Source: Clostridia bacterium
Lineage (GTDB): Bacteria; Bacillota; Clostridia; Oscillospirales; CAG-272
Direction of reading: 5' to 3'
DNA length: 38,389 nt
Assembly (NCBI GenBank): GCA_017396225.1
Contig: JAFQMP010000021.1
Coordinates: 1 to 38,389 of the forward strand
Shown: positions 5,891 through 10,611 of the stretch, piece by piece
Position numbering within the stretch: the stretch's first letter is position 1
How the letters are laid out: each line of letters begins with the position of its first letter
Made by a program: the position numbers and the translations under genes
Notes under the pieces: model-generated
What the model was told of the DNA's origin: nothing
The model's database searches: none
Seen by the model: the letters and a program-made list of their open reading frames with translations, nothing else

Positions 5891-8017
5891 TCAGGAAAAA
5901 TCAAACACGGCTTTTCCGTCCTGCAGCTTTAGCGCCGCATCAAAGGGCTTGCCCGATTTTTTGGATACAAACCCCTTGATTTTAGAGGTTTTTCCCGTGG
6001 TCAGCAGCAGGCGCATATTGGCGGCGGAGATGACACGCGCACAAATTGAAGTGTTCACACGGAAGTCGCAGCCCTCGCGATACCCCTCGCAGCCATAGCT
6101 GAATTTGCCGCGCAGCACGCGCTTGCCGCAAAGCGGGCAAGCACCAACCTCCTCGCCGTACACACCGATTTCAGTGTCCTCCTCAATCGTCTGCTCCTTG
6201 TTGGCAAAGACGGCACGCACCTCGGCGGCGGCAAGCGCCACGCTCTCCTCCACCGACATTTCACCGCGGAATACCTTTTTCAGTGCCCTGCCCATTTCAC
6301 TGGTGCGGAATTTATCCATACGAATGGCAAGGCGGTCAAGCGACTCTATCAGATATTCACCGCCGGGGAGAATGGTGTAAACGTCCTTATTAAGCGCAAT
6401 ATAGCCACTCTTTCTCGCATTGTCAATGATGCCTGTGCGCGTTGCCTCGGTACCAAGCTCCAAGCCCTCAAAAACAGCGCGATATTCCTCGGCATCGTCA
6501 CTGCCCACGGCATCGCCCTCGCCCTCTACTGCCGCCTCTGCTGCTGCCTTTTCCTCGCGGAAGGGATTCTTCAGGTAATTGTTCAGGGTTTCAATGGTGT
6601 AGTGCTTGGGCGGCGTGGTTTCCTTTTCCTTGGGGGCAAAGGCAACCTCCACCACATCACCCTTGGAAAGCTTGGGGAGCACCTTATCCTTCTGGGTGGA
6701 ATCGTCATATTTCATCCAGCCCTTTTCAAGAATGACAAGCCCCTTCAGGACAAATTCCTCCATATCCCCCACAGCAACCGTGATTTCGGTGCGCTCCGCC
6801 ACGCAGGGCTCAGCACAGAATACGGCGGCAAAGCGGCGGAACACGGTGGAATACACCATATTCTCGCGCTCGGTGAGCTCACCCTTCTTGGGGATTTTAT
6901 AGGTAGGCGTCAAGGCTGAGTGGGACTCGATTTTACTGTCATCAAAAATCTTGGGGCTATCCTTGAAGGTGAGGTTGTAGCCAAGCTCGCAGGCAAGCGA
7001 GATAATCTTGCGCATCTTCCCCTTCTCCGCCGTGGCAAGGTACTCGGAGTTGGTACGGGGATAGGTGAGATAGCCCTTCTCGTAAAGTGCCTGAATGATA
7101 GCAAGGCTATCCGCCATGGACATTTTATACTTTTTGCCAAGCACATTCTGGAGCTTTGACAGTGAATAAAGCTTGCCCGGCTGCAGATTATCCTTTTTGC
7201 GCTTGACCGACTTGACAACCGCGCCCACCTCGTTCATTTTTGCACAAAGCGCGAAGGCGGCATCGCGCGCACTCTCCTCAAATCTCTGCTTACCCGCAAG
7301 CTCCACGACCTCGCCGTTTGTTTTGGCGGCGCTATGGGCAATCAGGTACTTGCTCGGCTTGAAATCGCGGATTGCCATATCACGGTCATAAATGGCGCGG
7401 ACAATGGGGGCAATCACGCGCCCCACGCGCAGGAGCGTGCCGCTTTTTATGGTGGCATAGCGCGTAAGATTTACGCCGTAAAGCCAGTCAATATAGGTGC
7501 GGGCAAAGCCCTCGTTGGCAAGGTTCTGGTAAGACGCCGCATCACCGAGATTGGCAAGCGCCTCACGCACGGTTTCGGGGGTCTGGTCGGGAAGCCAGAG
7601 CCTTTTTTGCGTTTTTGGGGTTTTCAGGGCGTGTGCAACGCAAAGGCGAACGATAATCTCGCCCTCGCGGTCAGCGTCACCCGCATTGACAATGGTATCG
7701 ACGTCCTCGCGGTTGCAAAGCGCGGAAATAATGTTGAACTGCTTGAGCACACCGCTGTCCACGCTCTTTTTGTCCTTATCCTGACGGAGCTCAAAGCGGA
7801 ACTGCTCGGGAATACAGGGCAGCTTATCGAGCGACCAGCGCGCACCTGCATCACCGCCTGTATAGCTCTCAATATCAACAAGAGAAAAGAGGTGGCCGAA
7901 TGCCCAGGTAATGAGATACCCCTCCCCCTCCAAATAACCGTCACGTCGGGTGCATTTGCCAACGCCTGCGGCAATATTGCGTGCAAGGCTCGGCTTTTCG
8001 GCAATAATCAAAACCAT
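5891..8017 (-). CDS. topB: DNA topoisomerase III (type IA)
   Basis: This 708-residue type IA topoisomerase passes one DNA strand through a transient single-strand break and decatenates replication or recombination intermediates. The Toprim domain shows Glu7 (AEKPS) and DADREGE at 114-120. The catalytic tyrosine is Tyr319 in YPRTNSEYL. LGTEATRTGII marks the core, after an acidic alanine-rich insert. The C-terminus has a cysteine module (CPLCGK... GCEG...C) and the KGFVSKKSGKPFDA repeat typical of topoisomerase III rather than TopA. The start ATG follows AGAAAGGA. It has its own promoter and is followed by the P-loop kinase. Confidence 0.95.
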   Translation of the reverse strand: MVLIIAEKPSLARNIAAGVGKCTRRDGYLEGEGYLITWAFGHLFSLVDIESYTGGDAGARWSLDKLPCIPEQFRFELRQDKDKKSVDSGVLKQFNIISALCNREDVDTIVNAGDADREGEIIVRLCVAHALKTPKTQKRLWLPDQTPETVREALANLGDAASYQNLANEGFARTYIDWLYGVNLTRYATIKSGTLLRVGRVIAPIVRAIYDRDMAIRDFKPSKYLIAHSAAKTNGEVVELAGKQRFEESARDAAFALCAKMNEVGAVVKSVKRKKDNLQPGKLYSLSKLQNVLGKKYKMSMADSLAIIQALYEKGYLTYPRTNSEYLATAEKGKMRKIISLACELGYNLTFKDSPKIFDDSKIESHSALTPTYKIPKKGELTERENMVYSTVFRRFAAVFCAEPCVAERTEITVAVGDMEEFVLKGLVILEKGWMKYDDSTQKDKVLPKLSKGDVVEVAFAPKEKETTPPKHYTIETLNNYLKNPFREEKAAAEAAVEGEGDAVGSDDAEEYRAVFEGLELGTEATRTGIIDNARKSGYIALNKDVYTILPGGEYLIESLDRLAIRMDKFRTSEMGRALKKVFRGEMSVEESVALAAAEVRAVFANKEQTIEEDTEIGVYGEEVGACPLCGKRVLRGKFSYGCEGYREGCDFRVNTSICARVISAANMRLLLTTGKTSKIKGFVSKKSGKPFDAALKLQDGKAVFDFS

Positions 8018-8058
8018 CAGCGCACCGTCCTTTCTAAAAACTAAAGTTATACTATATC

Positions 8059-8087
8059 ATTGTAACGCAAAACACAAAAATAGTCAA
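8059..8087 (-). promoter_or_regulatory. Sigma-A promoter of topB
   Basis: TTGACT (8087-8082) and TACAAT (8064-8059) on minus are separated by 17 bp, about 40 bases before the topB ATG. Confidence 0.8.
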
Positions 8088-8152
8088 TCCATACTTGATA
8101 TTTTATTTTGAGAATCGCAAGGCGCAGCCCACACCCCCAATACAAGTCAATT

Positions 8153-8183
8153 AAAAAGGACGGAGCAAAGCTCCGTCCTTTTT
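8153..8183. terminator. Bidirectional terminator, left edge of the RHH/SLOG insert
   Basis: A perfect 14-bp stem (8153-8166 and 8170-8183) around AAA has A5 on the left and T5 on the right. It ends the minus-strand RHH gene and insulates topB. Confidence 0.9.
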
Positions 8184-8194
8184 CCGCAGATAAG

Positions 8195-8368
8195 TTATGC
8201 TCTTTTTCCCGTTTTAATCTCTCCGTGCTTTTTCTCGAAAGTCTCAATCAAATCACGAATGAGCACGAGAATCTGACTGTTGGCACTTCTGCCCTCATAG
8301 TCTGCAATCACGTGTAATTTGTCTAACATTTCTTCTTCAATTCTGATTGATACACTTTTTATAGCCAT
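8195..8368 (-). CDS. Small ribbon-helix-helix (Arc/CopG-type) DNA-binding protein
   Basis: This 57-residue protein begins MAIKSVSIRIEEEMLDKL and continues through HVIADYEGRSANSQILVLI to a basic tail. The N-terminal beta-strand SVSIRI, the helix EEEMLDKLHVIADYEG and the RSANSQILVLIRDLIETFE helix form a complete ribbon-helix-helix fold. Such proteins bind DNA as dimers through the strand and often repress their own operon. The ATG follows CGAGGTTTTTT, a moderate ribosome binding site. It is divergent from the SLOG gene across 110 bp that contains two copies of TATATCCAwTTTG, a candidate operator. An antitoxin or a plasmid-type regulator is a possible alternative role. Confidence 0.85.
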   Translation of the reverse strand: MAIKSVSIRIEEEMLDKLHVIADYEGRSANSQILVLIRDLIETFEKKHGEIKTGKRA

Positions 8369-8397
8369 AAAAAACCTCGTTTTGAGTTTGATATGTA

Positions 8398-8426
8398 TTT
8401 ACTTTATATCCATTTTGTGTTAAAAT
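8398..8426 (+). promoter_or_regulatory. Sigma-A promoter of the SLOG gene
   Basis: TTTACT (8398-8403) and TAAAAT (8421-8426) are 17 bp apart. The expected leader is about 46 bases. Confidence 0.75.
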
Positions 8427-8469
8427 GTTAAATATAGGCTCGAAATATGTTCAAAGTATATCCAATTTG
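8405..8469. promoter_or_regulatory. Candidate operator: two direct repeats TATATCCAwTTTG
   Basis: TATATCCATTTTG (8405-8417) lies in the promoter spacer and TATATCCAATTTG (8457-8469) in the leader just before the ribosome binding site. The two copies are 52 bp apart (about five helical turns) and match at 12 of 13 bases. Binding by the RHH protein is inferred, not shown. Confidence 0.45.
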
Positions 8470-8478
8470 AGGTGTAAT

Positions 8479-8814
8479 ATGAAATTAGCAATTGTTGGTT
8501 CAAGAAATTTAACAAATATCATACTTGACGATTATATCTCGGAAAAGGTGCTGGAAATCGTATCAGGCGGAGCAATCGGTATCGATTTTTGTGCAGCGGA
8601 ATACGCAAAAAGAAAGGGCTTACGTCTTGTAGAATTTTTACCGCAATACGAGCGATACGGACGTGCAGCACCAATCATAAGAAATAAAGAAATTGTAGAT
8701 TATGCAGATGAAATTTTAGTTTTTTGGAACGGATATTCAAAGGGGACCCTGTCGGTCATCAAATATGCGCAAAAAGCAGAAAAACCGTGTAAAATTATAC
8801 TTTATAGTAAATAA
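8479..8814 (+). CDS. SLOG-domain protein (DUF2493/DprA-like Rossmann fold)
   Basis: This 111-residue single-domain protein has the SLOG signature: AIVGSRN at the N-terminus, SGGAIGID in the middle, then RNKEIVDYADEILVFW and KGT. SLOG domains bind nucleotide-derived ligands or nucleic acid and occur in DprA, LOG phosphoribohydrolases and many phage and conflict proteins. This one most resembles the short DUF2493 kind. The ATG is preceded by TTGAGGTGT. An earlier in-frame ATG at 8425 lies in the -10 box. The gene is visibly more AT-rich than its neighbours, diverges from a ribbon-helix-helix gene and is boxed between terminators, which suggests acquisition. Its molecular role is unknown. Confidence 0.82.
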   Translation: MKLAIVGSRNLTNIILDDYISEKVLEIVSGGAIGIDFCAAEYAKRKGLRLVEFLPQYERYGRAAPIIRNKEIVDYADEILVFWNGYSKGTLSVIKYAQKAEKPCKIILYSK

Positions 8815-8841
8815 AGGGACAGACTGTCTGTCCCTTTATTT
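8809..8841. terminator. Bidirectional terminator, right edge of the RHH/SLOG insert
   Basis: A perfect 15-bp stem (8809-8823 and 8827-8841) with loop CTG includes the SLOG stop codon in its left arm. It serves both the SLOG gene and the convergent rqcH. Confidence 0.9.
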
Positions 8842-8847
8842 ATACGA

Positions 8848-10611
8848 TTATTTCACGCGCAAACGCGCGATGGCTTCCTTATCGGGGGTGACGGTGGCGC
8901 TCCAGTTGGTATGATAAATCACAAAGCCGGGCTTGCCGCCGGGTGTGCGCTTCAGGTGCCTGATGAGGGTGTAATCCACCTCAGTCATCGGCGCGCCGTC
9001 GGCAGCTGAAAAAATTGCGGCAATTGAGGCTGCCTCGGTAAAGTCTGCTGCGGGCGGCTCCGCCTTGCCCTCAAGGAGCATCACCACGTGAGAGCCCGGC
9101 ATACCCTTGACGTGGAACCAAAAATCGTTTTTGGTGGCAATTTTGTGGGTAATATGCTCGTTTTGCAGATTGTTTTTTCCGCAGAGCACCCGATAGCCGC
9201 CCGAGGTACGGTATTCGGCAAAGCCCGGCGTCGGCGTGCCTCTGCCGCGGCGCTCCACCATTCGCACACGCGAGGCGTAGCCTGCGCGTGCAAGCTCCTC
9301 ACGGATTTCCAAAAGGTCGGTGGGCGTTTCCGCCGAGGCAAGTGCGGTTTCCACGGTGTCAAGATAGGCAAGCTCAGCCTCGCCAATGGCGATTTGCCTG
9401 GCAAGCTCCGCCTTTGCCGTTTTGCTCTTGTTGTATTTCTTGTAATAGCGCTGCGCATTGGCGGTGGGAGAAAGGCGGGGGTCAAGCGCAACCTCTACGG
9501 TACCAAAGCTGCCGTCCTCGCGGTAATCCTCATAATCAGTCAGGGTCACGCGTTCATCACCGCGCGCAAGCGCATAGCAATTGGCAACTATCAAATCACC
9601 CATGCGCTTATAGGTTTCACCTGCCGCGCTTTCTGCAAGCTCAGTGCGCTGCAAGGAAAGCTTGTTTGTAATGCGCTGCCTTGCGCTCGTCACAAGGCGG
9701 ACCACATCGGTGGCGCGTTGCTTGACGCGTGCCTCGCGGTCACGCGTGCCAAACCACATATCAAGCAGTGCTGAGGGGGATTCCACGAAACGCAGCTTAT
9801 CATACTGCGTAAGGGGCAAAAAGGCGTATTCTCTGGGGTGCTCGGCATCATCTAAGACAAGGCAGGGAGAAAAGCGTTTTTCTGCAATATCCCCAAAAAC
9901 GGTATGAAAAACACGATATAATGCACCGCCGTCAAGGGCGCTTGCAGGGGTGTCGGTTTCTCCGCTGGCGCGGTAGACAATCTCCCTTGCCAGGACGGCA
10001 GAAATACCAAGGTAGTTGGCAGTAATCCACTTGTCGGCAGGGCGCTCCCCTGCGCCCGAAAGGGCGGATAGAAAATCCGCCTTGCACTCCTTGCGCGGGT
10101 CGCGCTTATCCTGCGGCGGAGGCAGCTCATAGCGCATACCAGGCAGAACCTGTCTTAAGCTGCTGGTGGTAAAGTCCACGGGGCGCAGCACGGCAAGTAT
10201 CTTCCCTTCACCGTCTGTTAAAATCAGATTGCTGTATTTACCCATCATCTCCGCGACAAGGCGGCTCTTGGTAGGAAAGCCCATTTCATCGCGGGTATCC
10301 CACTCCAAAACCAGCACGCGCTCAAAGCCCTCCTGTCTGACGGCGGCAAGGCGCGCACCCGACAGGCGTTTGCGCAACAGCTGACAGAACTGCGGCGGAT
10401 TTTGCGGATTTTCCAAGGGAATTTCGGTAAAGCCGATACGCGGATTGGAGGAGCCCGCGTTAATCAGCAGGCGGCGACCGCCCGAAAAGGTGCGCAGCAG
10501 GAGCACAACGGTATCGCGCTCGGGCTGATGAATTTTCTCAATGGCGGCGCCGAGCGCCACCTGCTCAATTTCTGCCGCAAGTGCGGCAAGAAAGCCTGCA
10601 TCAAGTGCCAT
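8848..10611 (-). CDS. rqcH: RqcH, NFACT-family ribosome quality-control protein
   Basis: This 587-residue NFACT protein (also annotated fibronectin-binding protein FbpA) binds split 50S subunits carrying stalled peptidyl-tRNA and recruits tRNA-Ala to add C-terminal alanine tails. The NFACT-N domain opens with LDAGFLAALAAEI and contains NPRIGFTE. A long helical coiled coil lies in the middle. The NFACT-R domain has NDFWFHVKGMPGSHVVM, then KRTPGGKPGFVIYHTNWSATV at the C-terminus. The start ATG follows GAAAGGAGC. It is 82 bp downstream of the HAD gene on the same strand, with no clear promoter between. Confidence 0.93.
   Translation of the reverse strand: MALDAGFLAALAAEIEQVALGAAIEKIHQPERDTVVLLLRTFSGGRRLLINAGSSNPRIGFTEIPLENPQNPPQFCQLLRKRLSGARLAAVRQEGFERVLVLEWDTRDEMGFPTKSRLVAEMMGKYSNLILTDGEGKILAVLRPVDFTTSSLRQVLPGMRYELPPPQDKRDPRKECKADFLSALSGAGERPADKWITANYLGISAVLAREIVYRASGETDTPASALDGGALYRVFHTVFGDIAEKRFSPCLVLDDAEHPREYAFLPLTQYDKLRFVESPSALLDMWFGTRDREARVKQRATDVVRLVTSARQRITNKLSLQRTELAESAAGETYKRMGDLIVANCYALARGDERVTLTDYEDYREDGSFGTVEVALDPRLSPTANAQRYYKKYNKSKTAKAELARQIAIGEAELAYLDTVETALASAETPTDLLEIREELARAGYASRVRMVERRGRGTPTPGFAEYRTSGGYRVLCGKNNLQNEHITHKIATKNDFWFHVKGMPGSHVVMLLEGKAEPPAADFTEAASIAAIFSAADGAPMTEVDYTLIRHLKRTPGGKPGFVIYHTNWSATVTPDKEAIARLRVK

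Follow-up and report, generated by a model that had tools for sequence, protein, structure and literature searches.

Two small genes lie back to back between the genes for topoisomerase III and NFACT/RqcH in the window, by which we mean the whole 38,389-nucleotide stretch of Clostridia bacterium DNA that was analyzed. One encodes a 57-residue ribbon-helix-helix (RHH) protein of the Arc type and the other a 111-residue stand-alone SLOG protein. The features of the locus are as follows.

5891-8017, minus strand: topoisomerase III gene (topB), the neighbor on the RHH side
8059-8087, minus strand: promoter-like site of topB, TTGACT-17-TACAAT (promoter scan and relatives)
8118-8847, no strand: segment taken as acquired (homology to relatives stops at 8117; the NFACT stop codon is the other flank)
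8153-8183, no strand: perfect palindrome, bidirectional terminator-like, closing the RHH side (seen in the sequence and as an inverted self-match)
8195-8368, minus strand: gene for the 57-residue Arc-type RHH protein, class A (open reading frame, Pfam Arc, alignment to Arc)
8390-8417, no strand: putative operator patch 1, overlapping the SLOG -35 and spacer and containing TATATCCATTTTG at 8405-8417 (gap alignment, repeat lags)
8398-8426, plus strand: SLOG promoter-like site, TTTACT, 17 nt, extended -10 TGTTAAAAT (scan and gap alignment)
8430-8469, no strand: putative operator patch 2 in the SLOG leader, containing TATATCCAATTTG at 8457-8469 (gap alignment, repeat lags)
8469-8474, plus strand: ribosome-binding-like GAGGTG ahead of SLOG (read from the sequence)
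8479-8814, plus strand: gene for the 111-residue stand-alone SLOG protein, predicted DprA/YpsA-like fold (open reading frame, Pfam, model)
8807-8843, no strand: 17-pair hairpin, bidirectional terminator-like, between SLOG and NFACT (terminator scan and self-match)
8848-10611, minus strand: NFACT/RqcH gene, the neighbor on the SLOG side

An earlier note on this DNA had described the two genes as diverging from 110 bp of AT-rich DNA, which was borne out by the open reading frames, the Pfam matches, and the 25% GC of the intergenic region. The reported difference in base composition was also found: the module is 35.8% GC versus 54.1% for the whole window, and 2 of 754 overlapping segments of module length (step 50) were as low or lower, both of which may be the module itself. 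The terminator-like palindromes reported for the two ends are present at 8153-8183 and 8807-8843, the left one being absent from the list of the terminator scanner. Over 7500-9500 the scanner returned 5 promoter-like sites, where shuffles gave 2.6 (sd 1.8), and 4 terminator-like sites, where they gave 2.7 (sd 1.7); taken by themselves, these counts do not rise above chance. For the leader, an RNA element was considered and dropped, as Rfam gave no match in the window at gathering scores.

The best Pfam match of the SLOG protein was DNA_processg_A (34.1 bits, cut-off 29.6). YAcAr (PF10686) reached 27.3 bits over the whole protein, just under its cut-off of 28.2, so that by the Pfam model the protein is not filed as a YAcAr member. 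A SLOG Rossmann-like fold is predicted by the AlphaFold2 model, which was built with 7 sequences (pLDDT 93.1); the nearest solved folds by VIA-align were a molybdenum-cofactor binding protein (Z 12.7), YpsA (12.3), and DprA (12.3), followed by ShosA (11.8), ThsA (10.3), and LOG (up to 9.9). The motifs GSR, SGGAxGxD, YxxY, APxxRN, and WxGxSxG are invariant among 34 RHH-linked SLOG proteins. Assignment as a LOG phosphoribohydrolase was rejected: the Glu of the LOG motif PGGxGTxxE is missing from all 94 proteins examined, which have V, T, I, or A at the corresponding aligned position 93. Identity as DprA was rejected on the basis of NCBIfam TIGR00732, which gave 27.1 bits against a cut-off of 191.15 and matched residues 2 to 46 only. 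A known defense system was likewise discounted, since PADLOC returned only partial matches to ShosA (19.4 bits) and PsyrA (25.4 bits) and a weak match to PDC-M13A. The protein has one domain, presumably binds nucleotides, and is placed with DprA and YpsA within the SLOG superfamily; its ligand or effector role perhaps lies in phage-host conflict through the binding of nucleotide signals.

Regulator classes and putative operators

The RHH protein matched Pfam Arc (PF03869) at 24.4 bits, above the curated cut-off of 20.4. Its residues S5, S7, and R9 align to Gln9, Asn11, and Arg13, which are given as the base-contacting residues of Arc in the portion of PMC12645479 available. The relatives fall into three classes at these positions. 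Class A has SSR in 20 of 22 proteins (NSR and HTR in the others), class B has HGE in 12 of 13 (HGR in the other), and class C has RTR in 6 of 6, the arginine thus being common to A and C. The model of the window protein (pLDDT 86, pTM 0.60) contains helices at 12-25 and 29-48 and stops about 9 residues past helix 2; a strand would be expected to pair only in the dimer. Values of dN/dS against the window genes were 0.04 to 0.18 for four same-genus copies of the RHH protein and 0.10 to 0.20 for three copies of the SLOG protein, one of them from outside the genus, and are rough because dS was often above 1 and five other comparisons yielded no value.

The earlier note had reported TATATCCAwTTTG twice, in the spacer of the SLOG promoter and in the leader. 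Both copies were found, TATATCCATTTTG at 8405-8417 between the -35 and -10 of SLOG and TATATCCAATTTG at 8457-8469 in the leader, at a spacing of 52 bp; no others occur on either strand of the window. A 12-of-13 match was reached by 4 of 300 dinucleotide shuffles of the 110-bp gap. The direct repeat was missed by a general repeat finder and was located with a dedicated script. When the gaps of the relatives were aligned on the SLOG -10, the extended -10 was found to be flanked by two conserved patches at most class A and B loci, and the patches differed with the regulator. Class A proteins (KSxSIRI) pair with TATATCYA/ATATGTTYA, class B proteins (KHLGIEI) with TTAAGTATA/GTATACTTA, and class C proteins (RYTLRV) with TGACGCAA-type repeats. 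The -10 anchor did not fit at eight loci (class A L009, L015, L023, L101, L111, and L116; class B L010 and L040), and in class C its position varies between loci.

Compared with 40 mononucleotide shuffles, a repeat lag of 11 bp was found in all three classes, and a longer lag of 52 bp in class A (22 loci) and class B (13 loci) and of 50 bp in class C (6 loci). Further strong lags exist at 41 in class A and at 37 and 15 in class B, so that 11 and 52 are not the sole periodicities. RHH dimers may use half-sites about one helical turn apart. The expectation that the repeats would be conserved therefore held for RHH-class-specific operators at a lag of 50 to 52 bp and failed for the exact 13-mer.

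The relation among operator, regulator, and payload was assessed with Mantel tests over 35 loci and 2000 permutations, which do not model phylogeny. Operator distance followed RHH distance (r 0.694, reached in 0 of 2000 permutations; 0.692 with SLOG distance removed). Its correlation with SLOG distance was 0.128 (51 of 2000), or 0.111 (171 of 2000) with RHH distance removed, and RHH and SLOG distances were unrelated (r 0.069, 313 of 2000). In the 97-locus tree a supported clade unites the window SLOG, which faces a class A regulator, with L004, L005, and L032 to L035, all of which have class B RHH proteins. Among closer same-genus SLOG proteins, L165 (76% identical) and L166 (69%) have class A and L167 and L170 (both 68%) class B, which places a class change inside the SLOG group of the window rather than at the window alone. 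Two SLOG proteins of a single genome that are 86% identical are accompanied by class C (L007) and class B (L040). These comparisons support the conclusion that the regulator/operator half and the payload half have been exchanged independently between loci. The claim of the earlier note that the RHH protein controls the SLOG protein gains support from the co-variation of operator and RHH sequences, with the qualification that the RHH protein is not tied to one SLOG family.

Recurrence, other partners, and the genomic slot

SLOG relatives were detected by protein search in 117 of the 295 genomes of the order. A set of 97 distinct SLOG loci was assembled, 38 from the initial searches and 59 fetched (L039 to L098 minus the duplicate L097), mostly from the better-scoring matches. 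A divergent RHH gene was present at 34 of them across gaps of about 92 to 139 bp, with match strengths of E < 1e-19 at 33; the match at L039 is different and weak (5e-4). The other 63 loci lack this RHH, 17 having a divergent upstream XRE-type gene and 46 neither, by the models used. One of these 17 is L002 (G000:C48:3015-3335), the second SLOG gene of the genome that holds the window, which is 44% identical and faces a divergent XRE-type regulator rather than an RHH protein. In IMG/VR, relatives of the window RHH were found on 21 viral contigs, and 16 of these carry a divergent SLOG gene; several of the 21 are near-identical, L277 has a stop inside the RHH gene, and L272 is cut off. The proposed co-occurrence check was thus answered positively, the two families being adjacent and divergent elsewhere in both sets. 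The Ruminococcus phage NatCom_28274 has a complete RHH-SLOG pair about 2.7 kb from a methyltransferase gene. Three viral contigs were read for their neighbors; Pfam confirmed a C5-methyltransferase gene on L260 and an amidoligase gene on L277, and similar genes on the others were recognized by eye.

Searches with the RHH protein gave matches in 111 of the 295 genomes of the order at E 1e-6. Among 30 loci from this search, the window included, 18 face the SLOG family of the window, 3 a YpsA-type protein, 2 or 3 a small DYxxMY protein, and 6 nothing recognized (including L123, which could not be assessed). A phylum-wide search of 398 genomes gave matches at E 1e-20 in 9, one of them the own genome; of the other 8, 3 face a YpsA-type protein that is also matched by the SLOG model and 1 the small DYxxMY protein. 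Over all routes 109 distinct RHH loci were gathered. A SLOG or YpsA-type partner was recognized by the models used at 62 of these, a figure that is biased by how the loci were gathered and that includes a few truncated partners, and a recognized partner was absent at 42 with the first models and at 44 after the small-protein model was rebuilt.

The RHH-operator unit, as judged from these loci, is found facing YpsA-type and other small proteins as well as SLOG proteins, and so is not confined to one SLOG family. The YpsA-type label is weak: one of five such partners passed the Pfam YpsA cut-off of 27.7 (54.8 bits), and the others scored 16.2 to 27.4. At L101 (3131-3301), L122, and L129, and by eye at L281, a protein of about 50 to 80 residues with the motif DYxxMYxxLFNxxTD occupies the SLOG position facing the RHH gene; the two such proteins searched matched no Pfam family above cut-off. 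At L262 and L266, both viral contigs, and at L241 the RHH gene faces another partner, a protein with the motif PHLPExEREYEIVK, for which the L241 copy gave no Pfam match up to E 0.1. Two further arrangements were observed: on a Ligilactobacillus salivarius megaplasmid (L280, 2181-3436), several small genes of the RHH/Arc family that alternate in orientation lie close to a gene for a replication initiator, and in an inovirus genome an RHH relative (L103, 3721-3882) and an RstB-like gene are divergently oriented.

A motif model of the class A and B gaps scored above 40 at 18 of 22 loci with a YpsA-type or small partner; three of the 18 (L122, L124, and L129) were in the training set, and when left out L122 scored 40.7 and L124 81.9. 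The misses were L111, L114 (30.3, and -2.2 when left out of training), L227, and L251. Some class B gaps were also scored by the class A model, up to 34.6; the scores of shuffled gaps were all below -11. At the 63 SLOG loci lacking this RHH the score for the A or B motif never exceeded 0, and by eye L017 has a SLOG gene with a partial class-A-looking leader and no adjacent RHH gene.

The gap between NFACT and topB was compared in 20 other genomes of the genus. It is empty in 7, where topB starts no more than about 45 nt from the end of the NFACT gene. The two genomes with the most similar NFACT (G304 and G305) have a gene for a 428-residue protein there (L211 184-1470 and L212 233-1519), whose product looks alkaline-phosphatase or phosphodiesterase-like by eye, and for the remaining 11 no topoisomerase gene turned up in the 1.5 kb examined. 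Since the gap is empty in some relatives and holds another gene in two, it seems to be a variable slot. G304 and G305 share the topB promoter region with the window, 8048-8117 being 89% identical, and homology ends at 8117. From these alignments the acquired part is probably about 8118-8847. The earlier view of an acquired module gains support from the variability of the slot, and a simple account of insertion into an empty site had to be refined because the relatives closest in NFACT hold the 428-aa gene there.

Six SLOG copies in other genomes of the genus were found at E 1e-25, none on an NFACT-bearing contig; five are accompanied by class A or B RHH genes and one by an XRE-type gene. L167 (1397-2251) and L170 (1395-2251) share a block of about 857 bp that is 95% identical between unrelated flanks. 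An intergenic repeat of about 90 bp, built around a terminator-like hairpin of varying stem, also occurs in dispersed copies in the genus (L185, L195, L197, L198, and L199); in places its halves are split by 0.3 to 0.8 kb of other sequence, and in L167 and L170 by the class B RHH-SLOG pair. Transposon-like ends of this kind were sought with the window insert and none were found. The SLOG gene is truncated in G308 and G296 and gone in G301, with the RHH gene and operator kept (operator scores being those for G296 and G301).

Proposed mechanism and competing readings

The reading that we favor, and hold to be reasonably probable from the comparative data, is that the locus is a portable divergent switch that represses itself and whose payloads, SLOG proteins in the main, can be exchanged. 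RHH dimers would occupy two patches, one on each side of the SLOG -10 and about 52 bp from each other, in which the half-sites are spaced by about 11 bp. Occupancy of both patches would shut off the SLOG gene and, since the rhh promoter must fall in the same 110 bp, would also limit the RHH gene itself. Without RHH, or with RHH titrated away, as might happen on entry of the element into a new cell, a burst of SLOG would follow until RHH accumulates. The most likely job of the SLOG protein would be to bind, and so sense or neutralize, a nucleotide-type signal in phage-host conflict. The whole unit, which phages carry, would also land in intergenic sites, the NFACT/topB gap being one. Comparison supports this scheme through recurrence, operator/RHH co-variation, geometry, payload exchange, the variable gap, and the predicted SLOG fold; what we infer is the repression by RHH, the cause of its relief, and the ligand of SLOG.

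The suggested setting of conflict draws its support from context, namely the carriage by phages and published proposals. In the portions of the literature available, stand-alone phage and bacterial SLOG proteins are proposed to act on nucleotide immune signals by sensing, clearing, or making them (PMC9503650, PMC7824862), with viral SLOG proteins degrading or sensing ADP-ribose-type signals (PMC9503650) and YAcAr-type SLOG proteins of jumbo phages making such signals (PMC7824862). Control of dosage would make sense if SLOG is harmful in excess, as is another SLOG protein, YpsA of Bacillus subtilis, which according to the available part of PMC7376506 is lethal when overproduced. A broader version, to which we give some credence while thinking it doubtful, is that gut Clostridia and their phages could share the RHH-operator half as a general plug-in switch: promoter geometry would be constant, specificity and payload would be exchanged independently, two SLOG families would be the main payloads, and an entry-timed pulse would release a nucleotide-signal binder against host immunity in the naive cell, with silence afterwards.

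The lethality of YpsA (PMC7376506, as above) would suit a type II toxin-antitoxin system in which SLOG is the toxin and RHH the antitoxin that binds it and represses the pair. The same reading would accommodate the absence of the A or B operator motif from all 63 SLOG loci without this RHH and the retention of RHH and operator at G308, G296, and G301, where SLOG is truncated or lost. The last is a weak argument, however, as the one-way decay comprises few events and the RHH gene is a smaller target; moreover, some true operators escape the motif model, and L017 may be an exception to the pattern. The genes are divergent and form no operon, and with about 9 residues past helix 2 in the model the RHH protein has little to wrap a toxin. 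RHH and SLOG sequences also do not co-vary (r 0.069, 313 of 2000), the 86%-identical SLOG proteins of L007 and L040 face class C and class B regulators, and RHH proteins of the same family face other partners too. The absent co-variation and the partner exchange weaken this as the main reading, and we consider it unlikely.

The missing co-variation also speaks against a second alternative, in which SLOG is a ligand-dependent co-regulator that contacts RHH when bound to nucleotide and lifts repression in the manner of phage antirepressors. The Arc-like gene of phage phiC2 does diverge from an anti-repressor gene, and phage SLOG domains are in places fused to HTH or other nucleic-acid-binding domains and proposed as sensors (PMC9503650, in the part available), but payloads not recognized as SLOG occupy the same position, and this reading appears quite improbable. 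A third alternative, in which a phage or mobile element uses SLOG as a small DprA-like accessory that binds single-stranded DNA, is very improbable: DNA_processg_A is its best Pfam match, DprA is near in fold (Z 12.3), and phage copies lie near DNA methyltransferase genes, yet the NCBIfam DprA model gave 27.1 against 191.15 over residues 2-46 only, and the single domain of 111 residues is shorter than the 212- and 220-position DprA profiles.

Under the favored reading of a self-repressed switch, the unit would be complete in about 730 bp, bring its own repressor, come in three natural operator specificities, and accept different payloads. It would offer a direct handle on SLOG: reporters could indicate when SLOG is needed and payload swaps what its role is. 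DNA recognition by the Arc family can also be studied through the three RHH classes, which amount to a natural experiment.

Comparison with known systems

Each half of the unit is known. An RHH switch dedicated to a stand-alone SLOG protein, with separable specificity and payload, is apparently new, no description of the RHH-SLOG pair having been found in the open-access literature among the matches listed (titles and abstract starts).

ShosTA and PsyrTA are anti-phage pairs of a SLOG protein and an adjacent cognate toxin gene. The likeness is in the SLOG protein (PADLOC ShosA 19.4 bits and PsyrA 25.4 bits; ShosA Z 11.8), whereas the profile here was matched only in part and the neighbors are NFACT and topoisomerase III rather than an adjoining toxin gene. 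YpsA (PF06908) shares the SLOG fold (Z 12.3 to B. subtilis YpsA), and YpsA-type proteins are payloads elsewhere, but it belongs to another, longer SLOG family and most payload matches fall under the Pfam cut-off.

Stand-alone SLOG proteins (PHROG 289 "GTP-binding domain," DUF2493 in plasmid annotation, and Pfam YAcAr) are alike in length, sequence, and the GGAxGxD and GxSxGT loops. They differ in the dedicated RHH switch found here, which was looked for in a minority of the 388 phage and 22 plasmid records. P22 Arc and the phage Arc-like repressors (PF03869) share the Arc domain (Pfam and PDB sequence match), the two helices of the model, repeats about one helical turn apart, and, in phiC2, an Arc-like gene diverging from an anti-repressor gene. 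Unlike them, the present unit has SLOG rather than an antirepressor as its payload, repeat patches 50 to 52 bp apart, and three classes that differ at the contact positions.
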